DNA of 64,000 nucleotides from positions 62,001 through 126,000 of the forward strand of contig NZ_UXAW01000033.1 in assembly GCF_900609055.1 (NCBI RefSeq), written 5' to 3'. Both the position numbers and the translations under genes were made by a program. This stretch comes from Pseudogemmobacter humi (GTDB lineage Bacteria > Pseudomonadota > Alphaproteobacteria > Rhodobacterales > Rhodobacteraceae). Below the pieces are notes generated by a model, which worked only from the letters and a program-made list of their open reading frames with translations, did no database searches and had not been told where the DNA came from. This document shows positions 1,421-42,959 of this stretch, in pieces (positions within the stretch are counted from its first letter, which is position 1; each line of letters opens with the position of its first letter).

Positions 1421-1449
1421 AATTACATGAGCGAAAAGTTCAGGTAATT
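1421..1449. promoter_or_regulatory. Candidate operator: inverted repeat with TGA-N9-TCA core
   Basis: The left arm AATTACATGA (1421-1430) and right arm TCAGGTAATT (1440-1449) are complementary at nine of ten positions and separated by 9 bp. The site lies 81 bp upstream of the binding-protein ATG. A second dyad with the same TGA-N9-TCA core and AT-rich flanks lies 78 bp upstream of the TonB receptor start (5128-5154). Shared architecture and shared distance suggest one regulator. That the Rrf2 protein encoded between them binds here is inference. Confidence 0.55.
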
Positions 1450-1457
1450 GCGCTGCG

Positions 1458-1757
1458 TCAAACGCCGGGGGCTTTCGGCGCGGGCTGCGGCAAAGCGCAG
1501 AACTCGACGAAGAACCGCACCGCGCCCTGCGGGGCCACCTCGTGCCGCGCTTCGGGGCGGATCAGCGGATGGATACCGGGGCCGATCAGATGGTCGCGCC
1601 CGGTCTCCAGATCGCGAAACATGAGGAGCCCCGAAAGCACATGCAGCCGCGCCCAGGTGCCTGGCTTCGTCGCATGGGCGCGCAACAGGCCCGCCGGGAT
1701 CGTCGCCGCGGTGAACTCAGTGGTGCGGCGGTAAGGGGTCAGCGCCTCGGGCCACAT
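1458..1757 (-). CDS. DUF1971 (cupin-like, TehB-associated) protein
   Basis: A 99-residue protein matching the small DUF1971 family. The visible landmarks are PYRRTTEFTAATIPAGLLRAH near the N-terminus, a central LHVLSGLLMFRDLE strand pair, and HEVAPQGAVRFFVEF towards the C-terminus. Family members have a cupin-like fold, occur alone or fused to TehB-type methyltransferases, and are often found beside genes for nitrogen-oxide stress or respiration; their biochemical role is not established. The start is 3 bp downstream of the FmdE-domain gene stop, so both come from one transcript. Whether it binds a metal or a small ligand is unknown. Confidence 0.75.
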   Translation of the reverse strand: MWPEALTPYRRTTEFTAATIPAGLLRAHATKPGTWARLHVLSGLLMFRDLETGRDHLIGPGIHPLIRPEARHEVAPQGAVRFFVEFCALPQPAPKAPGV

Positions 1758-1760
1758 GGC

Positions 1761-2372
1761 TCAGGTGTCCCAGTCGTAGACATGGATCAGCCGGGGGTCT
1801 CCGGCCGCCGCGAAGATCCGCCGCACCCGGTCCTGCCACAGCAGGGCGAAGCGCGCCTCTGTCTCGGGGGCCGCCTTTCCCGCCAGAACGGCGGGCATCA
1901 GCGCACGCATCTGCGGGTCATGCGGCACCAGCCCGGTGTCGAGATCCACCGCCACCCCGGCGCCGGTATCCAGCCGCCGCAGGCCGATCGCCCCGCCGAT
2001 CGGCGCCCCGAAGTGAAGCAGCCCGCGCCGCGCATGGCGCCCGCCGATTCCTTTGAACCCGCCCGGCCCCGCCGCCCCGGTGATCAGCGTCGCGACAGAG
2101 GCCAGCACGCCCGCGGTGCCCTCGTCCTCTTCCTCGCGCAAAGCGACGGCGATGCCGCCGCGCTCGGGTATCTCGTCGGGGTAAAGCCAGTCGAGCCCGG
2201 CCAGCACCATCAGCCAGGCCCCCGCCACCGCCGGGCAGGAATGGCCTTGCAGCCGCACCGCATCGGCATAGGTGAAATGCAGAAGGCCCGCCTCGCTGCT
2301 GCCCAGAAGCCCCGCCAGCGGATCGCGCAGGGTGATCCCGGGGGCCTGTGCGAAGAAATCCGGGAAGGTCAT
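1761..2372 (-). CDS. FmdE-domain protein (formylmethanofuran dehydrogenase subunit E-like)
   Basis: A 203-residue protein. The start at 2372 was chosen because it overlaps the stop of the Rrf2 gene by ATGA and because the domain begins directly after it; an open frame upstream has unrelated, arginine-rich content. Around residues 33-45 it carries YADAVRLQGHSCPAVAGAW, the H-x-C-P motif of FmdE-type domains, which are thought to bind a metal near the conserved His/Cys. The rest is a compact alpha/beta domain with GIGGRHARRGLLHFGAP. There is no C-terminal zinc ribbon, so this is the stand-alone form. Stand-alone FmdE proteins have no settled function. Linkage to a TonB receptor and an ABC importer suggests handling of an imported metal or cofactor, which is inference. 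Confidence 0.7.
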   Translation of the reverse strand: MTFPDFFAQAPGITLRDPLAGLLGSSEAGLLHFTYADAVRLQGHSCPAVAGAWLMVLAGLDWLYPDEIPERGGIAVALREEEDEGTAGVLASVATLITGAAGPGGFKGIGGRHARRGLLHFGAPIGGAIGLRRLDTGAGVAVDLDTGLVPHDPQMRALMPAVLAGKAAPETEARFALLWQDRVRRIFAAAGDPRLIHVYDWDT

Positions 2373-2803
2373 GGCACCGCTCCTTTTTCCCGCGCGAGGC
2401 GGTCTTCTTCCGTGATCAGGCTGGCCAGGGTGCGGCGGTCCATCTCGGCCATGAAGGCGGCCATGGCGGCGGTGATGGCGATGTCCAGCGCCTCGGGGCG
2501 GCCGGGGTCGCGGATCTCGTCGGGGCCGAAACATTCGATGGCGGCCATGTCCGGCTCGGTCACGCGAAGCACCCGGCCGAGCGTCAGCGCCTCGGGGCGG
2601 CAGCCCATCTCCAGCCCGCCGGTGCGGCCGCGCACCGCGCGCAGAAAGCCCGCGCGGGTCAGCACATTGGCCACCTTGGTCAGATGCCCGCGCGAGATGT
2701 CATAGGCGGCGGCCGCCTCTTCGGTGGTGATCAGCCGCCCGGGATGGCGGGCGGCATAGATCAGCAGGCGCAGGGCATAATCGGAGAAATTGGTCAGTCG
2801 CAT
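2369..2803 (-). CDS. Rrf2-family transcriptional regulator (NsrR-like, incomplete cysteine set)
   Basis: A 144-residue winged-helix regulator; the frame is open 13 codons further upstream, but the family start MRLTNFSDYALRLL is at 2803. The DNA-binding helix region is YDISRGHLTKVANVL (about residues 34-48), followed by the wing RGRTGGLEMG. NsrR and relatives bind an Fe-S cluster through three cysteines after the VxATEPD segment. Here VTEPDMAAIECFG keeps Cys91, but the two later cysteines are absent (the only other Cys is Cys68). Asp8, a cluster ligand in one characterised NsrR, is present. It sits between the TonB receptor and fmdE genes in the same direction. It is likely an autoregulator of this locus that may sense something other than NO, or hold a cluster differently. 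Confidence 0.8.
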   Translation of the reverse strand: MRLTNFSDYALRLLIYAARHPGRLITTEEAAAAYDISRGHLTKVANVLTRAGFLRAVRGRTGGLEMGCRPEALTLGRVLRVTEPDMAAIECFGPDEIRDPGRPEALDIAITAAMAAFMAEMDRRTLASLITEEDRLAREKGAVP

Positions 2804-2881
2804 CTGGCGCCTGTGAAACCTGGGGCTGGCCAAGTGAATCACGCGCCGCCGCCCGGGGTCAATCGGGCGGCGGCCCCGCGA

Positions 2882-5050
2882 TCAGAAGTTCAGCCGCGCG
2901 CCGAGGTAGAAGGCGCGGCCGGTGCCGGGGATGAAGGCGGCCTGATCGGGCCGCGCCTGGTCGAGCACCAGGGTAGACGACGCATAACGCTCATCGAACA
3001 GGTTCGAGACCCGGGCGAAGACCACCGCCGTTTCCGAGACCGCATATTCCGCCCCCACATCCACCAGCGCATAGGAATCGTTGAAGAGCGTGTTCATATT
3101 GTCCACCGGCGTCCTGCCCGGCACCCAGTGCAGTTTGCCGTTCAGGCTGAGGGCCTCGGTCGCCTGCCAGGCCAGCGCGAGGGTGATCACGTTCTCGGGC
3201 GCCCCGGCCAGTTTGTTGTCGCCGCGCAAAGGATCGTTGTCGAAGCGGAAGTCCTGCCAGGTCCAGGCAAGGCGGGCGGAAAGCGTCTCGCTCAGCTCGC
3301 CGCTCAGCCCCAGTTCCAGCCCGGAATGCACCGTGCGCCCGGCGTTCACCGCGGCGAGCTGCACCCCGCTGGAATCGCGCAAAGACAGCAGTTCGTTCTT
3401 CAGCCGCGAGTGGTAGGCCGTCACGTCCCAGGTCAGCGCGCCCCGGGTGCCGCGCCAGCCGGCCTCCAGCGTGACGGCGCTCTGCGCCTCCAGATCCGGG
3501 GTGGCAAGGCCGGTCGGGCCCGAATTCGGCGTGCCGCCGATGGCGCCGATCAGATCGTCATGGGTCGGCGGCTCATAGCTTTTCGACAGCGAGATCCAGG
3601 CGAACTGGTCCGCGGCCGGCTGCCAGGACAAGGCCAGCGAGGGCGCGAAGCCCGACCAGCTGCGGTCGTAATCGGTGGCGGTGAAAGGCGCGCTTCCGAT
3701 CACCGGGCCGGCCGGGGTGAAGGTCAGCGTCGGCCGGGTCGCCCCGGTCCACAGATCGTTGTTGCGGCGTTCGGCATGGATGAAGGCCACCGCGGGCGAC
3801 AGGGTGAAGCCGCCGATTTCGACATTCGCCCCGGCATAGAGCGAAAGCGTCTCGGCCTTCAGCCGGTTGCGCCCGAAAGCCGGGCCGGGATTGCCGCGCA
3901 GGTTGTGGTTCCAGTCGCGGTCGGCCTCGCCGAAGGACCAGGACAGACCGGCCTCGAACAGCGGCAGATCGCCGGTGCCTTGCAGGGCATAACGCGCGGT
4001 CAGCGTGGCGTCGTTGCCGTCGGTCGCCCGCACCGCGCCCGAGACCGGGAAGGTGAAACTGTCATCGGTGCGCGAGAGGCTGAGGCCGAGGTCCCAGACC
4101 TGGGCGCCGTTCTCCCAGGTGGTGCGCAGGCCCGCAAGCGTCTGCACCGTGTCGCGGTGCGGCAGGTCGCGCAGCACGTTGGGGCCGGGTTGCGTGGGCA
4201 CGCCGCCCACCGGCACCGGCCCGGCATGATGCGAGGTCGGGTTGTTCAGCATCGCATCCCAGGTCAGCGGACCGGCCACGTCAAAGCTGAGGTCGGTATG
4301 GCTGAAGAACAGCCGCGTGGTCGCCGCGCCGGTGGCAAAGGTGACGTTGCCGCCGACCGAAGTGCGTCTGGACCCGTTGTAATCGCGGTAGCCCTCGGCC
4401 TCGGAATGTTCGAACCGCAACAGGGTATCGGCCGCCTCGCCGTCGATCCCGTAGCTGGCCGCCAGATCGCCGCGACCGAAACTGCCGCCGCCGACCGAGA
4501 GCCGCAGCCCCGGCGCCGAGGCGCCCGAGGGCGAGGCGAAATTGAGCGCGCCGCCCAGCACCGTCGCCCCCAGCCGGTTCGCGCTGGCACCGCGGAAGAT
4601 CTCGATCGACTCGGCCTGGCCCGGCAGCGCCAGACCCACGACATAGGACCCGTCGGCCCGATTCACCGGCATCCCGTCCATCAGCACGAGGAGCCCGCGC
4701 TCGGCCGGGTTCTGCTGCTGGCCCGAGCCGCGGATCTGGATGCGCGGCTGGTCGTTGCCGCCGAAGAACTCCTGCACCACCACGCCGGGCGTGCCGGACA
4801 GTGCCTCGGACAAGGTGGGCGCCGCCTTGTCTCCGGGCGTGTCAGAGCGGTCGATCAGCGCCACCCCGCCCGCGGTCGCGCCGAAGCGCAGCTTCACCGG
4901 ATTGTCGGCGTCAAGATGGATGGTGCCAAGCTGGATCGTCGCCCCGGGGGCGACCGATTGCGCCAAGGCGGGCAGGCCGGGCAGCGCCGCGATCAGCGCA
5001 AGGGAAAGCGGGCGGGAAAATCGGGGCAAAGACACGGGTGTCACCTTCAT
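2882..5050 (-). CDS. TonB-dependent outer-membrane receptor
   Basis: A 722-residue outer-membrane receptor. Residues 1-30 form a signal peptide ending PALAQ. The plug domain (about residues 70-180) has IQIRGSGQQQNPAERG, VLMDGMPVNRADGS and ESIEIFRGASANRLGA, followed by GGALNFASPSG. The remainder is a 22-strand-type barrel ending in a terminal aromatic (GRAFYLGARLNF). Such receptors take scarce metals, siderophores, haem or cobalamin across the outer membrane with TonB energy; no substrate-specific motif is recognisable. It is the first gene of the minus-strand series that includes the Rrf2, FmdE and DUF1971 genes and, past a possible second promoter, the ABC importer. The dyad at 5128-5154 lies in its promoter region. 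Confidence 0.93.
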   Translation of the reverse strand: MKVTPVSLPRFSRPLSLALIAALPGLPALAQSVAPGATIQLGTIHLDADNPVKLRFGATAGGVALIDRSDTPGDKAAPTLSEALSGTPGVVVQEFFGGNDQPRIQIRGSGQQQNPAERGLLVLMDGMPVNRADGSYVVGLALPGQAESIEIFRGASANRLGATVLGGALNFASPSGASAPGLRLSVGGGSFGRGDLAASYGIDGEAADTLLRFEHSEAEGYRDYNGSRRTSVGGNVTFATGAATTRLFFSHTDLSFDVAGPLTWDAMLNNPTSHHAGPVPVGGVPTQPGPNVLRDLPHRDTVQTLAGLRTTWENGAQVWDLGLSLSRTDDSFTFPVSGAVRATDGNDATLTARYALQGTGDLPLFEAGLSWSFGEADRDWNHNLRGNPGPAFGRNRLKAETLSLYAGANVEIGGFTLSPAVAFIHAERRNNDLWTGATRPTLTFTPAGPVIGSAPFTATDYDRSWSGFAPSLALSWQPAADQFAWISLSKSYEPPTHDDLIGAIGGTPNSGPTGLATPDLEAQSAVTLEAGWRGTRGALTWDVTAYHSRLKNELLSLRDSSGVQLAAVNAGRTVHSGLELGLSGELSETLSARLAWTWQDFRFDNDPLRGDNKLAGAPENVITLALAWQATEALSLNGKLHWVPGRTPVDNMNTLFNDSYALVDVGAEYAVSETAVVFARVSNLFDERYASSTLVLDQARPDQAAFIPGTGRAFYLGARLNF

Positions 5051-5127
5051 GGGGCTGCGTTGGCGAAGGTGCTGGCGTCATGCTGGCAAGAGGGCGCGGC
5101 CCTGGGGCGGCGCGGGAAACAGATGCT

Positions 5128-5154
5128 ATAATATGAATGGACAGGTCATATTAT
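5128..5154. promoter_or_regulatory. Candidate operator/promoter: ATAATATGA-N9-TCATATTAT
   Basis: A perfect 9-bp inverted repeat with 9-bp spacer lies between the divergent TonB receptor (start 5050) and nitronate monooxygenase-like gene (start 5234), almost equidistant (78 and 79 bp). The left arm overlaps TATAAT at 5127-5132, a consensus -10 on the + strand. The local AT-richness stands out in otherwise GC-rich DNA. It matches the dyad at 1421-1449 in core and spacing. Binding by the Rrf2 regulator is proposed, not shown. Confidence 0.6.
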
Positions 5155-6397: not shown

Positions 6398-6431
6398 GGT
6401 GCAAGGGGCCGCCCTTTCCGCCCCTGGCACC
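6398..6431 (-). terminator. Hairpin just downstream of the LysR gene
   Basis: GGTGCAAGGGG (6398-6408) pairs with CCCCTGGCACC (6421-6431) with one mismatch around a 12-nt loop. It abuts the stop codon of the minus-strand LysR gene and also lies downstream of the plus-strand monooxygenase gene. No T-run follows on either strand, so it would be at best a weak or Rho-assisted end. Confidence 0.35.
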
Positions 6432-7273
6432 TACAGAAGCCCTTCGGCCTCGTGCAGCAGACCCGGGATCCAGGGAAAATCCGCCAGCCTCTCGCTGCGC
6501 CAGGCAAAATAGCAGGGGCGCTCGAAGACCGGGCTTGAGCGAACGGGAAACAGCCGGCCGCAGGCGAAATGCTCGCACACCAGCCGTTCGGGCAGATAGG
6601 CCGAGCCGCCCTGTTGCAACAACAGCCTGAGCCCCCAGTCGGGATGGCCGATGGTGGCATGGGCGATGTTGTCGTCAGGCCAGTGGCTGATGTGCTGGGC
6701 GTCGAAATTCTCGTCATAGGAGATGCGGATATAGCCCGGATCCCATTTCACCGCCCAGCGATCGGTGGAAGAGGCCTGGATCAGCCGGTCGGTATAGATG
6801 TGCTGACAACTGATGTTCGGCCGGCTCAGCGGCCCGGGGACAAGGATCGCATCGGCCAGTCCGCTTTCCAGCGCTTCGGTCATCGCGGCCATGGAGCCGC
6901 ATTGCACCTGGAAAGCGGTGCCCTCGTCCAGACCACGCGCGAGCTTATAGATCCGCTCGCCCAGCCCGGTCCACAGATCGAAAGTGCAGCCGAAGGTGAA
7001 CATCATCGACAGGCCATGCGGCAGGATCAGCTTCTGCTGCGAGAGTTGCCAGTTCTCGACGATCTGCCGGGCGTGACGCAGGAAGACCGATCCGGCCGCC
7101 GTCGGCGTCGCCCCCTTTTTCGAGCGGTTCACCAGCCGCTGACGCAGGTGATCCTCCAGCGCGTCGATCCGCCCGGCGATGGTGGATTGGGTCACGTTGA
7201 GCTGTTCTGCCGCGCGGGACAGGCTGCCAAGCCTGACGACGACCAGGAAGGTCTGGATTGCTTCGATCTGCAT
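6431..7273 (-). CDS. LysR-family transcriptional regulator
   Basis: A 280-residue LTTR. The N-terminal helix-turn-helix spans about residues 2-60 (IQTFLVVVRLGSLSRAAEQL, then NVTQSTIAGRIDALEDHL). The C-terminal effector domain is slightly short for the family and carries three or more cysteines. It is transcribed away from the monooxygenase operon that starts at 7378. A palindrome of LTTR type (7280-7300) lies 7 bp upstream of its start, so autorepression plus effector-dependent control of the divergent catabolic operon is likely. The effector is probably the operon's substrate or an intermediate. Confidence 0.9.
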   Translation of the reverse strand: MQIEAIQTFLVVVRLGSLSRAAEQLNVTQSTIAGRIDALEDHLRQRLVNRSKKGATPTAAGSVFLRHARQIVENWQLSQQKLILPHGLSMMFTFGCTFDLWTGLGERIYKLARGLDEGTAFQVQCGSMAAMTEALESGLADAILVPGPLSRPNISCQHIYTDRLIQASSTDRWAVKWDPGYIRISYDENFDAQHISHWPDDNIAHATIGHPDWGLRLLLQQGGSAYLPERLVCEHFACGRLFPVRSSPVFERPCYFAWRSERLADFPWIPGLLHEAEGLL

Positions 7274-7279
7274 GGCTGT

Positions 7280-7300
7280 ATTGTCGGAAATTCCGATAAT
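7280..7300. promoter_or_regulatory. LysR-type palindromic operator in the divergent promoter
   Basis: Arms TCGGAA (7284-7289) and TTCCGA (7291-7296) around a single A are extended by ATT (7280-7282) and AAT (7298-7300) at symmetric positions. The site contains the T-N11-A signature of LTTR binding sites, and lies between the LysR gene start (7273) and the operon start (7378). The AT-rich stretch 7320-7350 next to it probably holds the operon promoter. Confidence 0.7.
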
Positions 7301-7377
7301 TCTGTCAAGAAAATCCCGTTTTACAGATCATACATAATCTACATAACTAAGATTCAGCGTTTCAGAAGGAGCAGGCG

Positions 7378-8412
7378 ATGCTGTTCAGCAACCAGTTGTC
7401 GGCCGATTACCCGCAGAAGAACTATGGCACCGCCCGCGTCTACGGCGACATGCTCGAACAGGCGGTTCTGGTGGAAAAACTGGGCTTCGATGCGGTCTCG
7501 ATCACCGAGCATCACCTGGTGAATGTGCTGATGATGCCGGCTCCGCTGCAATTCGCGGTGAAAATCGCGGCGATGACGAAACGGCTTAAGCTGCTGACCT
7601 CGGTCGCGGTGCTGCCGCTGCACGATATGCGGACCTATGCGGGCGAGCTGGTGGTGACGGATCTTCTGACCGAGGGGCGGCTTTACCTCGGGGTCGGGCG
7701 CGGTGCTTTCGCCTTCGAGATGGAGCGAATGGGCGTGCCGATGGCCGAGACCCGCGAGCGTTTCGACGAATCCCTCGCGGTGCTGCAAAAGCTGCTGACC
7801 GAGGAAGAGGTGTCCTGGCGCGGCAAATATTACAATTTCGACCCGATCACCGTCATGCCGCGGCCCGTGGATCCGGCCGGGGTCAAGATGATGATGGCGG
7901 TGCTGAACCCCGAGGGGGTCTATCACTGCACGAAGCGCGGCTTCCACATCCAGACCACGGCGCTGTCGGGCAATCATCAGTTGCTGGTCGATCAGGTCTC
8001 GGCCTTCCGGCGCGCGAAAGAAGAGATGGGCGAGGCCGGCGCGCATCTGACCATCTCGCTGTCGCGGCTGGCGCATGTGGCGAAAACCCCGGCGGAACGG
8101 CAGCGCAAGCTGGAAACCGCGCAATCCTATTACGCGCGTTTCGACAATGTATACACCGGGCCGGGGCTGGTCGATGCCGGAATGGTGCGGCCCCTGCCGC
8201 GGGCGCAGAGCATCGACGAACTGGCGGCGAGCCAGCTTATCTGCTCGCCCCAGGAGATGGTCGACCAGCTCGGGGTCTATGCGGATCTCGGGGTGGACCG
8301 GGTGATCATCAATCCGAATTTCGGCCTGCCGCAGCAGGAAACGCTCGATGCGCTTCAGGCTTTTGCCGAAGAGGTCATGCCCGCCTTTCCGGGCCTGTCC
8401 GCCGCGGCCTGA
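7378..8412 (+). CDS. LLM-class (luciferase-like) flavin-dependent monooxygenase
   Basis: A 344-residue TIM-barrel monooxygenase using reduced flavin and O2. AAGGAG precedes the ATG. Visible family features: AVLVEKLGFDAVSITEHHLV (early barrel strand with the conserved EHH), TSVAVLPLHDMRTYAGELVV, LTEGRLYLGVGRG, and the C-terminal CSPQEMVDQLGVYADLGVDR. It needs a flavin reductase partner, and one is encoded two genes downstream. As first gene of the operon it likely carries out the key oxygenation of the imported compound, for example ring opening or C-N/C-S cleavage. The exact substrate is not readable. Confidence 0.88.
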   Translation: MLFSNQLSADYPQKNYGTARVYGDMLEQAVLVEKLGFDAVSITEHHLVNVLMMPAPLQFAVKIAAMTKRLKLLTSVAVLPLHDMRTYAGELVVTDLLTEGRLYLGVGRGAFAFEMERMGVPMAETRERFDESLAVLQKLLTEEEVSWRGKYYNFDPITVMPRPVDPAGVKMMMAVLNPEGVYHCTKRGFHIQTTALSGNHQLLVDQVSAFRRAKEEMGEAGAHLTISLSRLAHVAKTPAERQRKLETAQSYYARFDNVYTGPGLVDAGMVRPLPRAQSIDELAASQLICSPQEMVDQLGVYADLGVDRVIINPNFGLPQQETLDALQAFAEEVMPAFPGLSAAA

Positions 8413-8445
8413 CCCGCGCGCAAAAAGATAACCAGGGAGAAAACG

Positions 8446-8634
8446 ATGCCTGTCATCCGTGTGGAAATGTTCGAGGGCCGCAGCACCGATCAGAAGCGCG
8501 AACTGGTGCGCGAACTGACCGATGCCTTCGTGCGCAGCTGCGGCGGCACGCCCCAGTCGGTGCAGATCGTCATCAGCGATGTGGCGAAAAGCGACTGGGG
8601 CTCGGGCGGCCAGCTCTGCATCGACAAAGCCTGA
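8446..8634 (+). CDS. 4-oxalocrotonate tautomerase-family enzyme
   Basis: A 62-residue protein of the smallest tautomerase type. After removal of Met1 the N-terminal residue is Pro, the catalytic base of this superfamily (MPVIRVEMFEGRS). The helix TDQKRELVRELTDAFVRS and strand QSVQIVISDVAKSDWG complete the beta-alpha-beta unit. 4-OT enzymes keto-enol isomerise unsaturated oxo-acids formed by ring cleavage and work as hexamers. AGGGAG precedes the ATG. Its place between monooxygenase and flavin reductase suggests that the pathway yields an unsaturated 2-oxo acid or similar enol. Confidence 0.85.
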   Translation: MPVIRVEMFEGRSTDQKRELVRELTDAFVRSCGGTPQSVQIVISDVAKSDWGSGGQLCIDKA

Positions 8635-8654
8635 CGCCGGGCGGGGAGGGGAAA

Positions 8655-9179
8655 ATGGGCTGCACGCCGTCAGACTTCGTTGCCGCGATGCGGCGCTATC
8701 CGGCCAGCGTCTCGATCATCGCCACCGGGCGGCCGGGGCGGCGGGTGGGGATGACCGTCTCGGCGGTCTGTTCGCTGACGGCCGAGCCGCCGCAGCTTCT
8801 GACCAGCATGAACCTCTCCAGCGGAACCACGGCGGCGATCCGGGCGGTCGGCTGGTTTTCGGTGAATGTGCTGCGCGAGGATCAGGCGGCGCTGGCGGTC
8901 CGTTTCGCCTCGCGCGAGGCGGGCGTGCATGGTGAGGCGCGCTTCGCCGAGGGCGACTGGTGCGACAGCGACGAGGGGGTGCCGTTCCTCGCCGATGCAG
9001 CGCAGTCCTTCATTTGCCGCAGCGCGGGCCAGATGGAGACGGCGAGCCATCTGATCATGATCGGAGCGGTCGAGCGGCTGGTTCTGCCGCCGCCGGAACC
9101 CGCGCCGGTGCTGATGTATCACGACGGCGCCTGGGGCCATTTCAGCACCGCCGCCGCGCAGCGGGGGATCGGCGCATGA
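8655..9179 (+). CDS. Flavin reductase-like (split-barrel FMN) protein
   Basis: A 174-residue split-barrel flavin reductase. Family landmarks are FVAAMRRYPASVSIIATG, GMTVSAVCSLTAEPPQLLTSMN (flavin-binding loop), WFSVNVLREDQAALA and the closing LMYHDGAWGHF. Such proteins reduce FMN or FAD with NAD(P)H and supply it to a partner monooxygenase, here the LLM enzyme at 7378, as RutF does for RutA. It overlaps the next gene by ATGA, so translation of the importer ATPase is coupled to it. Confidence 0.87.
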   Translation: MGCTPSDFVAAMRRYPASVSIIATGRPGRRVGMTVSAVCSLTAEPPQLLTSMNLSSGTTAAIRAVGWFSVNVLREDQAALAVRFASREAGVHGEARFAEGDWCDSDEGVPFLADAAQSFICRSAGQMETASHLIMIGAVERLVLPPPEPAPVLMYHDGAWGHFSTAAAQRGIGA

Positions 9180-10207
9180 GCGCACCCGCCATCGAATGCC
9201 GCGGCGTTTACAAGCTGTTCGGCAATCCCGCCTGCCATGACGAAGTGATCGGGCTTCTGCGCGAAGGCAGGATCGACCGCACCGGCGCGCAGCAGCGCTT
9301 TGGCTGCATCGTCGCGGTGAACGACGCCAGTTTCGCGGTGCCGCGCGGCGAGATTTTCTGCATCATGGGCCTGTCGGGCAGCGGCAAATCCACGCTGATC
9401 CGCCATATCAACCGGCTGATCGAGCCGACCGCGGGCGAGATCTTCATCGACGGCAGGCCGATCAGCGGGCTCGACGCGGGGCAGTTGCGCGAATTGCGCG
9501 CGCGCCAGATCGGCATGGTGTTCCAGAACATGGCGCTCTTGCCGCATCGCAGCGTGATCGACAATGCCGCGCTGGCGCTGGAATTGCGCGGTGACGATCC
9601 GCAAAGCCGCCGCCGGGTTGCAGCCTCGATGCTGGCGCGGGTCGGGCTGGCGGGCTGGCACGACAGTTCTCCGGCGCAGCTTTCGGGCGGCATGCAGCAG
9701 CGCGTGGGGCTGGCGCGGGCGCTGGCGGCCGATCCGCAGATATTGCTGATGGACGAGCCCTTTTCGGCGCTCGACCCGCTGATCCGGCGGCAGTTGCAGG
9801 ACGAATTCCGGCAGTTGTCCACGCGGATGGGAAAGACCACGCTTTTCATCACCCATGATCTGGACGAGGCGATCCGCATCGGCGACCGCATCGCGATCAT
9901 GAAAGACGGCGAGATCTGCCAGACCGGCACGCCCGCGCAGATCGTCGGCAGCCCGGCGAACGATTACGTGGCGGAATTCGTGCGCAATATCTCGCGCCTG
10001 CATCTGGTGACGGCGGGCGAGATCGCCGCCCCCACGGCAGAGCCGCCCACGGACGCGCGCCGCGTAGCCCCGGGCGCGCCGCTGGCCGAGGTGATCGACA
10101 TCATGGCCGAGACCGGCGCCCCGGTCGCGGTGGCCGCGCCCGATGGCACCGCCGGGCTGGTCACGCCCCGGGATGTGCTGCGCGCACTGGCAGGGAGACC
10201 GCAATGA
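9176..10207 (+). CDS. Glycine betaine/quaternary amine ABC importer, ATP-binding protein (ProV/OpuAA-like)
   Basis: A 343-residue ATPase. The start at 9176 overlaps the previous stop (ATGA); an open frame further upstream is antisense-like filler. The N-terminus GVYKLFGNPACHDEVIGLLR is diagnostic of the ProV/OpuAA subfamily. Walker A is GLSGSGKST, the signature LSGGMQQRVGLARAL, Walker B ILLMDEPFSALDPL, and the H-loop FITHDLDEA. A C-terminal part (about residues 285-343) resembles one reduced CBS repeat, GTAGLVTPRDVLRAL, rather than the full CBS pair of osmosensing homologues. This suggests a nutrient-uptake rather than osmotic role. Confidence 0.9.
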   Translation: MSAPAIECRGVYKLFGNPACHDEVIGLLREGRIDRTGAQQRFGCIVAVNDASFAVPRGEIFCIMGLSGSGKSTLIRHINRLIEPTAGEIFIDGRPISGLDAGQLRELRARQIGMVFQNMALLPHRSVIDNAALALELRGDDPQSRRRVAASMLARVGLAGWHDSSPAQLSGGMQQRVGLARALAADPQILLMDEPFSALDPLIRRQLQDEFRQLSTRMGKTTLFITHDLDEAIRIGDRIAIMKDGEICQTGTPAQIVGSPANDYVAEFVRNISRLHLVTAGEIAAPTAEPPTDARRVAPGAPLAEVIDIMAETGAPVAVAAPDGTAGLVTPRDVLRALAGRPQ

Positions 10208-11403
10208 GCCGCACGGATGAGGTGAACATGCACATATCGTCAGGGGCTCCGATCCTGTGGCGGGGTCTGGTTGCGCCGGTCTCCTGCGCGCGGGAGGGAC
10301 GCCGGGTCCGGTTCGGGCTGGTCGCGGTCGCCGATTGCCTTGCGCTGGCGCTGCTGCTGAACGGCCGGTTTCTGGCGGGCGGCGCGGTGCTGGCCGGGGT
10401 GCGCGCGGTCCTTGTCGCGGCTGATCTCGCCGGGTTCGGGCGCGGGGCCGCACAGCCGGAGACCGCGCCCTGGCGGCTGGCCATTCTCGCCTGGCTCATG
10501 GCGCTGGCGGCGGTGCTGGCGGCCGGTCTGCCGGGCCAGCCCGCAGACTGGCTGCGCCGCTTTCCCTCCTCGCGCGAGCTGTTCCAGAGCGTCTCGGGCG
10601 GTATCGACCAGGTGATCCGCTCTCTGACGCAAAGCCTGGGGCCGGTCTTCGACCAGATCCGCAATGTGCTGAATTTCCTGATCTCGGCGATCGAGCAGGG
10701 CCTCGGCCTGCTGCCATGGCCGGTGTATTTCCTGTTCCTTGGCCTTATGGCCTGGCGGCGGGGCGGGGCGGGCGTCCTGGCGGTGGTCTGGCTCTGCCTC
10801 GGCTATCTCGGGCTGTTCGGCTATTGGGACAAGGCGATTGTCACCTCGGCGCTGGTCCTCGCCTCGCTTTGCGTCTGCATGGTGATCGGCATCCCGCTCG
10901 GCATCCTGATGGCCAAGAACCGCGTGGTCGGCGCGGTGCTGGAGCCGGTGCTGGATTTCATGCAGACGCTGCCGAGCTTCGTCTATCTGCTGCCGGCGGT
11001 GGCCTTCTTCTCCATTGGCAAACCCCCGGCGCTGATGGCCACGGTGATCTTCGCCATGCCGCCGCTGATCCGGCTGACCGCCCTGGGGATCGGCCAGGTG
11101 CCCACCTATGTGCGCGAGGCGCTTTACGCCCATGGCGCGACGCCGATGCAATGCCTCGTCAAGGCGGAACTGCCGCTGGCGCTGCCCTCGATCCGCGCCG
11201 GGGTGAATCAATGCATCATGATGAGCCTTGCCATGGTGGTGATCGCCGCGCTGATCGGCGGCGGCGGCCTTGGCTACGACGTGCTCTTCGCGCTTCAGAA
11301 CGTGCAGCACGGCCAGGGGCTGCTGGCCGGGATCGGCATCGTCGCCTGCGCCATGCTGTTCGACCGCATCATGGGCCGCAGCCGCGGCCCCAAAGACCGC
11401 TAA
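10204..11403 (+). CDS. Glycine betaine-type ABC importer permease (ProW/OpuAB-like)
   Basis: A 399-residue inner-membrane permease. It overlaps the ATPase stop by ATGA. The C-terminal half is the ProW-like permease: the EAA-type loop region reads GQVPTYVREALYAHGATPMQ with the downstream LPLALPSIRAGVNQCIMMSL. An N-terminal region of about 130 residues holds extra hydrophobic segments (residues about 25-75 and 95-110), and PVYFLFLGLMAW starts the conserved core. Together with the ATPase and the binding protein downstream it forms a complete importer. The ligand is presumably a betaine or other quaternary amine. Confidence 0.9.
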   Translation: MSRTDEVNMHISSGAPILWRGLVAPVSCAREGRRVRFGLVAVADCLALALLLNGRFLAGGAVLAGVRAVLVAADLAGFGRGAAQPETAPWRLAILAWLMALAAVLAAGLPGQPADWLRRFPSSRELFQSVSGGIDQVIRSLTQSLGPVFDQIRNVLNFLISAIEQGLGLLPWPVYFLFLGLMAWRRGGAGVLAVVWLCLGYLGLFGYWDKAIVTSALVLASLCVCMVIGIPLGILMAKNRVVGAVLEPVLDFMQTLPSFVYLLPAVAFFSIGKPPALMATVIFAMPPLIRLTALGIGQVPTYVREALYAHGATPMQCLVKAELPLALPSIRAGVNQCIMMSLAMVVIAALIGGGGLGYDVLFALQNVQHGQGLLAGIGIVACAMLFDRIMGRSRGPKDR

Positions 11404-11455
11404 CCGCAAAACCCCGGCGCAAGACCGGGCCCCTCAGCACCGACAAGGAGAGACC

Positions 11456-12460
11456 ATGACCTCACTTCGCTTCTTCCTCGCCGCCGGCACCAGCCTGTTT
11501 GCCCTTGCCGCGCAGGCACAGACGACCATCGTCCTGGGCGAGCTGACCTGGGACGAGCCCCGGGTCGTCAACGCGGTTCTGACCGAACTGCTTACCGCCG
11601 AATTCGGCGCGAGCGTCTCGCAGATCGCCGCCGACCAGGGCGCGATCTTCGGCGCCATGGCGCGCGGCGACGGCACCGTCGATGTGCACCCCGCGGTCTG
11701 GTCCGCCGCCCAGCAGTCGAACATCGACCGCTATGTCACCGAAGAGGGCAGCGTTCGCCTCAACAGCCGGCCCTATCTGGCGACGGACGGATTCTATGTC
11801 ACCAAAGCCACTTCGGAACGGCTTGGCGTGACCAGCATCGAGGATCTGAAGGATCCCGAAATCGCCAAAGCCTTCGACGTGAACGGCGACGGCCGGGGCG
11901 ATTACTGGCCCGGGGCGCCGGGCTGGGGGGTGACGAACATCTACACCGTCAAGGCGCAGAGCTACGGTCTGACCGGGCATTTCGACGCGCTGGTCGCCTC
12001 GGACGCGCTGTTCAAGGCGCAGCTGGAGGCCTCCGAGGCCAAGGGCGAAGGGCTGCTGTTCTACTACTGGGAACCCGAGGCGCTGCATGCGCGCTATGAG
12101 CTGGTGAAGTTGCAGGAGCCCGAATTCACCGGCTTCGCCTCGGAGGACAAGAAGGACGATCCGCAATACAACCCGGAAGGCTGCTACGATTACACCGATC
12201 CGGCCAACAGCCCCGACTGGCTCGCGCTGTCGAAGATCGACTGCGCCACGCCCGCCCAGCCGATCTACATCGCCTACAGCGCCTCGCTCGACGAGCGCGC
12301 GCCCGAGATCGCGCATTTCCTGTCGAATGTCTCGTTCGAGCCGGCCGAGATCGGCGAGATGATCTACAAGCTGACCGAAGAGAACATGGACCTGACCGCG
12401 ATTGCGAAGGAGTGGCACAGTGCCAATGGCGAGCGCGTCGCCGGCTGGAAGGCACACTGA
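11456..12460 (+). CDS. Glycine betaine/proline betaine-type substrate-binding protein (OpuAC/ProX domain)
   Basis: A 334-residue periplasmic protein. The start at 11456 follows AAGGAG (11445-11450) and gives a signal peptide ending LAAQAQ. The OpuAC-type domain shows GELTWDEPRVVNAVLTELL, HPAVWSAAQQSN, and FYYWEPEALHARYELVKLQE. In this family aromatic residues form a cage for the quaternary ammonium group, and several Trp and Tyr are suitably placed. Two cysteines in the C-terminal third (EGCYDY and KIDCAT) could form a disulphide. It is encoded directly after the permease, and a UUCG-loop hairpin follows its stop. Confidence 0.88.
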   Translation: MTSLRFFLAAGTSLFALAAQAQTTIVLGELTWDEPRVVNAVLTELLTAEFGASVSQIAADQGAIFGAMARGDGTVDVHPAVWSAAQQSNIDRYVTEEGSVRLNSRPYLATDGFYVTKATSERLGVTSIEDLKDPEIAKAFDVNGDGRGDYWPGAPGWGVTNIYTVKAQSYGLTGHFDALVASDALFKAQLEASEAKGEGLLFYYWEPEALHARYELVKLQEPEFTGFASEDKKDDPQYNPEGCYDYTDPANSPDWLALSKIDCATPAQPIYIAYSASLDERAPEIAHFLSNVSFEPAEIGEMIYKLTEENMDLTAIAKEWHSANGERVAGWKAH

Positions 12461-18123: not shown

Positions 18124-19071
18124 ATGCCCGAGACCCCTGCCGATTTCCGCTATCCTTTGCGCTGGCGTCTGATGGACGGCATCGAGGCGCTGGCGGACCG
18201 GATCTGGCCGCGCCGCCTGGCGCCCTGGACCGGCTGGCTGCTGATCACGCCGGCGCTGCTCTTGGTGGGGCTGCTGGTGCTTGGCCTGATCCAGATCGCG
18301 GATTCGTCTCTGCGCACGCTGGATACCGCGACCTTCCTGCCGTCTGAGGACTGGTCGCTGGCGAATTTCGAGAAGGCGCTGGCCTCGCGGGTCTATCTGA
18401 CCGTGGCCTGGCGCTCGCTTCTGGGGGCGGCGCTGACGACTTTCCTGACGCTCGCGCTGGCCTTTCCCTATGCCTATGCTTTGGTGCGCACCCGGCGGCC
18501 CTGGGTGCGCAAGGCGCTGCTGATCACTTTGTTCCTGCCGTTCTTCATCGGCCAGGTGGTGCGCGCCTATGGCTGGCTGATCATCCTCGGCAATTCCGGC
18601 ATGGTGAACGAGGCTTTGTCGCTGGTCGGCGTGGCGCCGATGCGGCTTTTGTTCAACTACCCTGCGGTGATCTTCGGCATGGTGCAATATATGCTGCCCT
18701 TCGCGGTCCTCTTGATGGTGCCCGCGCTGGCGGCGATTCCGGCAGAGACCGAGACGGCGGCCGGGTCACTCGGCGCGAACTGGCTGCGGACCACCTGGCA
18801 TGTGGTGCTGCCGATGGCGAAGCCGGGGCTGATCGGCGCCGGGCTTGTGGTCGCCACGCTGAGCCTGACCGATTTCGCGGTGCCCGCCATGCTGGGCGGC
18901 GGCAGTCAGGATTTCATCGCCAATGCGATCTATGACCAGTTCTTCCGCACCGCCGACCAGGGCCTCGGCTCGGCGCTGGCCTTGATGCTGGTGGCAGCGG
19001 GCTCGGTGCTGGTGGGGCTGGTGTTCTTGGTCTTTGGCGCGGGCACGCTCTCGATGGGGGGCCGCCGATGA
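18124..19071 (+). CDS. ABC importer permease, PotB-like
   Basis: A 315-residue inner-membrane permease. About six hydrophobic segments are visible, starting LAPWTGWLLITPALLLVGLL (residues about 34-55). The cytoplasmic EAA loop appears as AAGSLGANWLRTTWHVVLPM (about residues 214-233). This is the first of two permeases of the Pot-type importer. It overlaps the second permease by ATGA. It lies downstream of the hairpin/G15 element, which may tune its level relative to the binding protein. Confidence 0.88.
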   Translation: MPETPADFRYPLRWRLMDGIEALADRIWPRRLAPWTGWLLITPALLLVGLLVLGLIQIADSSLRTLDTATFLPSEDWSLANFEKALASRVYLTVAWRSLLGAALTTFLTLALAFPYAYALVRTRRPWVRKALLITLFLPFFIGQVVRAYGWLIILGNSGMVNEALSLVGVAPMRLLFNYPAVIFGMVQYMLPFAVLLMVPALAAIPAETETAAGSLGANWLRTTWHVVLPMAKPGLIGAGLVVATLSLTDFAVPAMLGGGSQDFIANAIYDQFFRTADQGLGSALALMLVAAGSVLVGLVFLVFGAGTLSMGGRR

Positions 19072-42284: not shown

Positions 42285-42959
42285 ATGTCAAAATCGCGCT
42301 TCCTTGTCCTTATGATATGCTGGCCTGTGCTTGCGCAGAACGTGCAGGCGGCCAGCCCGGCCGAACAGTGCCATCAGGCAATCACACTTGCGGCCGGACA
42401 GACGGAGGTGCCGCGGGAAATCCTGCTTGCGGTAGCGCTGACCGAAAGCGGCCGCGCAACGGCCCAGGGCCATCAACCATGGCCCTGGGCGCTGAACCAG
42501 GGTGGTGAGGGGTTCTGGTTCGCCAGCAAGGCCGATGCGCTCGACCATCTGAACGCGATGCTGGCCCAGGGGGTCAGCAATATCGACATCGGCTGTTTTC
42601 AGCTCAACTGGCGCTGGCATGGTGAGGCTTTCGCCTCGGTCGAGGCAATGATCGACCCGGGGCAAAACGCGGAATATGCGGCGCGCCACCTGTTGCGTCT
42701 TCGCCGACAGACCGGATCCTGGGAAAAGGCCGTCTCCGCCTATCACTCGGCCACGCCGGACCTGGCCGAGCGCTACATGGCACGGTTCATGCCGATCTAT
42801 GCCGCCGTGCTGGATGGCGGTTCGGCGCCCGCAACACCTCTCGTCCCGGCCGGGCCGCGGGTGAACAGCTATCCGCTGCTTCAGGCCGGCGCCATGGCAT
42901 CGGCAGGCTCGCTGGTCCCCGCCGCCGCCGGGCTGCGCCCGCTGTTCGGCGCACCATAG
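42285..42959 (+). CDS. Flagellar lytic transglycosylase (SltF-like)
   Basis: A 224-residue secreted protein. A signal peptide ends near NVQAAS (about residue 23). The SLT domain has the catalytic Glu in LAVALTESGRATAQG (about residue 53), followed by DIGCFQLNWRWHGEAF and QNAEYAARHLLRLRRQTGSW. The C-terminal 50 residues are Ala/Pro-rich. Rhodobacter flagellar clusters encode SltF, a peptidoglycan-cleaving enzyme that opens the cell wall for the rod and binds rod proteins. Rod-binding protein FlgJ of this window (56755) lacks a muramidase domain, which makes such a separate enzyme necessary. Confidence 0.85.
   Translation: MSKSRFLVLMICWPVLAQNVQAASPAEQCHQAITLAAGQTEVPREILLAVALTESGRATAQGHQPWPWALNQGGEGFWFASKADALDHLNAMLAQGVSNIDIGCFQLNWRWHGEAFASVEAMIDPGQNAEYAARHLLRLRRQTGSWEKAVSAYHSATPDLAERYMARFMPIYAAVLDGGSAPATPLVPAGPRVNSYPLLQAGAMASAGSLVPAAAGLRPLFGAP

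Follow-up and report, generated by a model that had tools for sequence, protein, structure and literature searches.

A 64,000-nucleotide stretch of the Pseudogemmobacter humi genome (the window) carries near its start two dyads with the core TGA-N9-TCA, which are probably operators of the Rrf2-family regulator encoded between them (P0001, 144 amino acids, minus strand, 2369-2803), a descendant of NsrR whose operator specificity appears to have shifted. Along the minus strand, the first 5 kb hold a TonB-dependent receptor gene, the Rrf2 gene, an FmdE-like gene, a DUF1971 gene, a gap with one of the dyads, and the genes of an ATP-binding cassette (ABC) importer. Site 2 (5128-5154, given no strand) is the predicted operator of the TonB-Rrf2-FmdE-DUF1971 operon, as judged by its motif and its recurrence elsewhere, and site 1 (1421-1449, also without strand), where eight of nine arm positions pair, is less strongly predicted to be that of the ABC importer operon.

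Both dyads, with their AT-rich arms, lie where a first, sequence-only reading of the window had reported them. Site 1 reads ATTACATGA-gcgaaaagt-TCAGGTAAT (1422-1448), with 8/9 arm pairs and a further A/T pair at 1421/1449, and site 2 reads ATAATATGA-atggacagg-TCATATTAT, a perfect 9-bp dyad (9/9). Two of the distances to start codons given by that reading were recovered, i.e., 81 bp from site 1 to the ABC binding protein (ATG 1340) and 79 bp from site 2 to a divergent nitronate-monooxygenase-like (NMO) gene (ATG 5234; 52 bp with ATG 5207), while the third, from site 2 to the TonB receptor (ATG 5050), measures 77 bp and not 78. TGA-N9-TCA occurs 27 times in the window (67% GC), and only sites 1 and 2 have at least five of six outer pairs. 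In 200 first-order Markov simulations of the window, such sites numbered 0.08 on average and one at most, and none also had AT-rich outer arms; the pair is indeed unlikely by chance in GC-rich DNA, as had been argued (two observed versus 0.08 expected per 64 kb). A weight matrix built from the sites of other genera only places site 2 (29.3 bits) first and site 1 (17.9 bits) second in the window. In 20 Mb of simulated sequence the score of site 2 was never reached and that of site 1 was reached 17 times, a chance rate of 0.05 per 64 kb but of about 4 per genome. Site 2 therefore stands by its motif alone, whereas site 1 needs symmetry and position as well.

The whole-genome scan that the sequence-only reading had proposed points the same way: within the 4.47-Mb genome the pattern AWWAYATGA-N9-TCANRTWWT is matched with no or one mismatch only at sites 1 and 2 (reversed control, 0), which suggests a local regulator. 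At two mismatches there are six further places, with no iron gene seen by eye among their neighbours; the pattern was tuned to the window locus, and this bears on how the absence of further strong sites is read with respect to an iron regulon. When up to three mismatches to a looser 19-bp consensus are allowed, there are 94 matches per strand versus 8 in the reversed control, site 2 being one of three places at two mismatches, so that a few scattered sites may exist in the genome.

These scans bear on a reading in which the dyads are iron boxes, recognized by other Rrf2 proteins of the genome, RirA-like or IscR (the Iron-Rhodo-box regulator of Rhodobacteraceae), and the importer is iron-regulated. 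TGA-N9-TCA is also the core of the IRO box of RirA at fhuA, TGACTAAAATAATCAT (PMC10510648), so this spacing is common to several kinds of Rrf2 operator; a related 19-bp palindrome is the target of Rhodobacteraceae IscR (PMC4618611); another Rrf2 gene of the window genome (L047) is placed by phylogeny among likely RirA proteins; and iron regulation is frequent among TonB receptors. However, a global box should recur before iron genes, and the genome has neither another site within one mismatch nor a visible iron gene at the weaker ones. In G204 and G199, two genomes of the same genus, the dyad is absent from the TonB promoters even though other Rrf2 genes are present, some of them related to L047 (L022, L027). 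The lack of further strong genomic sites for the locus-tuned pattern speaks against an Iron-Rhodo/IRO regulon, and we consider an iron-box function of the dyads improbable.

The dyad travels with the Rrf2 gene. It lies upstream in all seven loci of a clade of Rrf2 proteins with one cluster cysteine (the window, four Paracoccus species, G378 and its congener G785), and three lineages—the window, Paracoccus, and G378/G785—have in common the dyad, a member of this clade and FmdE. The Paracoccus TonB promoters carry AAAATATGA-N9-TCATGTTT (L051, L052, L053 and L066, four of the five records found, the fifth, H1, being left out), and in G378 and G785 ATTAYATGA-N9-TCATGTTTT precedes an Rrf2-FmdE gene pair, with a cbb3-type oxidase operon that includes a heavy-metal ATPase running divergently from it. 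The strict dyad occurs in none of 12 homologous TonB promoters without this Rrf2, while an NnrR/FNR-like box is present in 7 of these 12 versus none of the 5 TonB promoters with the Rrf2 gene, several of the TonB starts behind this comparison being our own estimates. G204 and G199 possess a TonB receptor (73% and 67% identity, respectively) and the binding protein, and their importer locus has no Rrf2 of the clade, FmdE or dyad. Among 394 genomes of the family, an Rrf2 relative with more than 66% identity was found only in G000 and G378, both with the strict pattern at that locus. The proposal of a single local regulator, most simply the Rrf2 encoded between the sites, is supported by this distribution (dyad in 7/7 loci with the clade, strict form in 0/12 without), and conservation in orthologous promoters, which the sequence-only reading had named as the test of its proposal, was found for site 2 and not for site 1.

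Several observations weigh against so close a link between dyad and regulator. Being near-identical, the four Paracoccus sites amount to a single lineage. The Rrf2 gene of G378 and G785 follows the dyad at a distance of about 280-310 bp, the dyad being in an intergenic region common to the divergent oxidase operon, and no TonB gene is present in the stretch examined of either genome. The strict pattern occurs in 23 of the 394 family genomes, 21 of which are not explained by a close Rrf2, and in 7 it takes the form ATGACA-N5-TGTCAT. The TonB promoters of Shinella (two) and Agrobacterium (three) carry a looser related dyad, AACATGYAWRNAAAACTCAWGTT, scoring 22.2-23.4 bits with a matrix that gives site 1 24.4 bits. 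Within the window itself, the ABC site abuts an NnrR/FNR-like box and is weaker than site 2, and no dyad precedes the Paracoccus ABC gene, which confines the two-operon model to the window.

In the five Rhizobiaceae loci, the promoters of the TonB-ABC-NnrS genes have AACATG-N11-CAWGTT about 23 bp upstream of the NnrR/FNR-like box (L055:7810-7860, L142, L056, L140, L141), and the stretch examined contains no Rrf2 gene; a trans-acting Rrf2 may read this cousin dyad, or the dyad may predate the local gene. No score above 18 was obtained near the TonB gene of Azospirillum (three), Cereibacter or Bartonella, and the best matches of the site 2 promoter in blastn against plasmids had E-values of at least 0.4. 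ATGACA-N5-TGTCAT, a separate palindrome, was seen in seven Rhodobacteraceae genomes (L147, L149, L153, L156, L163, L167 and L168), and five of the seven loci show a gene for an HTH_11/DeoR-type regulator next to it.

Part of this material would fit dyads that serve another, unlinked factor, or that are simply palindrome-like AT-rich promoter cores: the Rhizobiaceae promoters have a cousin dyad and no local Rrf2, the strict pattern also stands at the promoter of a DeoR/HTH_11-type regulator in other genomes, and the leading arms of both window sites double as candidate -10 elements. Against this stand the perfect pairing of site 2, the recurrence with one gene in three lineages, and the absence of the dyad from sister genomes without that gene, and we judge such an origin of the dyads very improbable.

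Judged by its sequence, the Rrf2 protein that we favour as their reader is of NsrR descent and has one of the three cluster cysteines. P0001 matches Pfam PF02082 with 85.9 bits and has NsrR as its best NCBIfam model, and it scores below the equivalog cut-offs of NsrR (88.1 versus 182 bits) and RirA (85.3 versus 193 bits); the IscR model gives 28 bits for a cut-off of 207.55, with a match that ends at residue 102. A tree of 90 rows unites the window protein, the four Paracoccus proteins and those of G378 and G785 in one clade (support 100/98, with a bootstrap that had not settled), which falls among the NsrR-like proteins. Outside the clade, the closest relatives are NsrR-like proteins with three Cys, and a further genome search returned only a three-Cys relative (G901). 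The Thermus NsrR keeps three Cys (PMC5748679).

All seven clade members retain Asp8 and one Cys of the NsrR triad, the first cluster Cys, and in the window protein the other two cluster positions are Arg98 and Glu104. A deletion of the Cys loop is ruled out by the alignment, which has an equal-length substitution in the window and Paracoccus proteins; the loop of the G378 and G785 proteins is three residues longer. Counting Cys in a fixed stretch (residues 85-125), 77 of 88 other Rrf2 homologues collected have at least three, and the 11 with fewer are five clade members, four distant proteins, L092, and the homologue on Cupriavidus necator H16 pHG1 (L064:6001-6447). L092 lacks all triad Cys, is the clade's nearest neighbour (86/90, unstarred) and lies in a nitrous-oxide-reductase cluster. 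The C. necator protein lacks the Cys triad and has a classical NsrR-type site upstream, so that loss of the cysteines and change of the operator need not coincide. An NsrR-like protein without any cluster Cys was seen in a nitrous-oxide-reductase gene cluster at L139:9020-9523.

The retained Asp8 and first cluster Cys leave room for a different view of the protein, as a nitric oxide (NO) or redox sensor that still carries an iron-sulfur cluster through the single Cys and other ligands, i.e., an NsrR with unusual ligation. The IscR of R. sphaeroides uses a single Cys in binding its cluster (PMC4618611), and the operon is tied to denitrification through NnrS and, in relatives, through nap, nirK and nor. 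However, two cluster cysteines are replaced in the window protein and at least three are kept in most of the homologues collected, while the variable length of the Cys loop among clade members suggests relaxed constraint. SifR is a single-Cys Rrf2 protein able to work without a cluster (PMC9218516). A cluster-bearing P0001 is possible but, on this evidence, rather unlikely.

The predicted operators of the clade have NsrR-type geometry. The sequence-only reading held that the motif does not resemble NsrR sites, and this was overturned by alignment on a common centre: the published consensus of Rodionov and co-workers, gATGyAT-N5-ATrCATc (PMC1274295), becomes yATGaAT-N5-ATtCATr in the clade sites, which depart from it by two symmetric substitutions, at half-site positions 1 and 5. 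All 12 clade half-sites have C/T at -9, G at -6 and A at -5, versus G at -9, A at -6 and C/T at -5, each in 10 of 12 half-sites, in the sites of six NsrR-type relatives (five three-Cys relatives and the C. necator homologue, L062 being left out). TGA stands at the core position in 12/12 half-sites of the six tabulated clade sites. Of the 14 nearest non-clade relatives with more than 50% identity, seven, L063 among them, have a canonical NsrR-type site upstream; for the other seven none was found in the stretch examined. The motif HLTKV is common to the clade and to outside relatives, and no recognition-helix change is assigned.

Control of the locus is most likely a variation on NsrR-type regulation and not a separate kind. 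The window system resembles NsrR in lineage (best NCBIfam model and tree neighbours), in dimer-operator geometry, in the outer and inner A/T positions, in the gene link to nnrS and denitrification, and in Asp8 and the first Cys. It differs in its score (88 versus 182 bits), in having only one of the three cluster Cys left, in its predicted control of a TonB/ABC importer, and in an operator with C/T for G at -9, A for a pyrimidine at -5 and, relative to the sites of its nearest relatives, G for A at -6. With RirA and the IRO box it shares the TGA-N9-TCA core, predicted control of a TonB receptor and 85 bits to the RirA model, but this is far from the 193 required, the Cys set is missing, the bases inside the core are others, and no genome-wide iron regulon was seen with the locus-tuned pattern. 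Like the Rhodobacteraceae IscR of the Iron-Rhodo box, it is a single-Cys Rrf2 protein with palindromic boxes near promoters (PMC4618611); its sites are local and those of IscR global, and it scores 28 bits versus 207.55. SifR and the monothiol, cluster-free Rrf2 proteins share with it a single conserved Cys, N9 between half-sites and an uptake system as target, in the window a predicted one, but SifR is set apart, by its description, through a TGTAA-N9-TTACA operator, the position of its Cys and a Gram-positive host (PMC9218516). Finally, NnrR-activated promoters of the nnrS type are close in that related TonB-ABC-NnrS operons have TTGCG-N4-CGCAA or FNR-like boxes, one of which abuts site 1, whereas none of the five TonB promoters with the dyad has such a box.

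The placement of the dyads is consistent with repression. The leading arm of site 2 contains a candidate -10 element, TATTAT (5128-5133, minus strand), with TGGATA at -35 and a spacer of 18 (9/12 consensus matches), and that of site 1 a candidate -10, TGTAAT (1422-1427, minus strand), identified by eye and not reported by the promoter scan. Since the arms coincide with candidate -10 elements, both about 80 bp before a start, a bound dimer would block RNA polymerase alike at both. Site 1 is abutted upstream by the NnrR/FNR-like box TTGACGCAGCGCAA (1448-1461, minus strand), one of three TTG-N8-CAA in the 64 kb. With the candidate -10 at 1422-1427, the centre of this predicted box would fall near -40, a usual place for an activator; the reference position for a TTG-N8-CAA box with a symmetric core is about -41.5. 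The arrangement suggests activation by a denitrification regulator plus repression by Rrf2.

From these positions we infer binding, repression and a double control of the following kind. An Rrf2 dimer would cover the -35/-10 region of the TonB-receptor operon and, because the Rrf2 gene lies inside the repressed operon, would regulate its own expression; it would probably also cover the ABC-NnrS promoter, beside the box for an NnrR/FNR-type activator. Release of the repressor would allow production of the importer, with the ABC promoter requiring the denitrification activator in addition. The regulation of the ABC importer proposed in the sequence-only reading keeps its site, but is the weaker part of the model because the score of site 1 is lower and no counterpart precedes the Paracoccus ABC gene. 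Control of the flavoenzyme (NMO) by site 2, also part of that reading, was not upheld: the NMO gene is not a conserved neighbour, another divergent gene taking its place in the annotated Paracoccus locus, and such control is possible but unsupported.

More tentatively, and with the odds somewhat against it, this branch of NsrR may have given up the NO-sensing iron-sulfur cluster and, with its operator shifted at two symmetric bases, may have turned into a local repressor of a TonB/ABC/NnrS importer that elsewhere is under NnrR/FNR-type activators. A second signal, perhaps an imported ligand or metal, with the FmdE-like protein as partner, would then act besides denitrification. If this is right, the locus shows in detail how a sensor family can alter its cofactor as well as its DNA code, and there are intermediates for comparison, namely three-Cys relatives with the old operator and the pHG1 homologue with no triad and an old-type operator. 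It would also predict the control of an uncharacterized importer that accompanies nnrS, nap, nirK and nor, and so bear on the import needs of denitrifiers. In the main texts of the open-licence literature, no description of this operator or of control of this importer was found. The available part of a Paracoccus denitrificans zinc-limitation RNA-seq paper (PMC5387054) does not mention NnrS, Rrf2 or FmdE, that of a copper review (PMC7558416) does not mention NnrS, and a term search in PMC12774639 gave no match.

The genes of the locus are consistent with an importer associated with denitrification functions. On the minus strand, the TonB-dependent receptor P0003 (2882-5050) has YncD and a pyrroloquinoline quinone (PQQ) transporter as its nearest solved sequences, which are too distant to name a ligand. 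The FmdE-like P0002 (1761-2372) falls just under the Pfam cut-off (22.7 versus 22.9) and gives a weak structure model (predicted local distance difference test, pLDDT, 64.9), whose best structure match, and only plausible fold match, is FmdE 2gvi (E 0.0045). The DUF1971 protein (about 1458-1757) is assigned by a domain match and is cupin-like, of the TehB/YeaR type. They are followed by the ABC substrate-binding protein P0004 (375-1340; NMT1/SsuA/MqnA-like) and the 5' part of the permease gene (2-394), which continues past the window edge (L003), where ATPase and NnrS genes follow (Pfam PF00528, PF00005 and PF05940). On the plus strand, the NMO gene P0005 (5234-6277) is divergent from the TonB operon.

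The annotation of P. ferrooxidans has the whole set in one row, TonB-Rrf2-FmdE-DUF1971-binding protein-permease-ATPase-NnrS, its FmdE being labelled 'hypothetical'. In unannotated loci, genes were called by a simple script, and six neighbours central to the argument were checked with Pfam. Relatives of the importer adjoin nap, oxidase or hemerythrin genes, and nearly every locus read contains NnrS; FmdE relatives lie beside nirK, with nor also present in one of two Azospirillum loci. In Azospirillum (L059:6791-9196 and L060:6789-9220), the FmdE-like gene directly follows nirK and is followed by a hemerythrin-domain gene. As a wide probe, FmdE was found in 1 of 198 family genomes and 1 of 385 class genomes, in both cases the window's own.

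A second NsrR-like gene of the window genome adjoins a DUF1971 gene that is 69% identical to that of the window (L119:4300-4988). Two other perfect 9-bp dyads with a 9-bp spacer, GC-rich and possibly terminators, lie at 18485-18511 and 42463-42489 of the window. Beyond the NMO gene, the region 6431-12460 holds, by eye, a LysR gene, luciferase-like and flavin-reductase-like genes, and a second ABC cassette, whose binding protein is of the glycine-betaine type.

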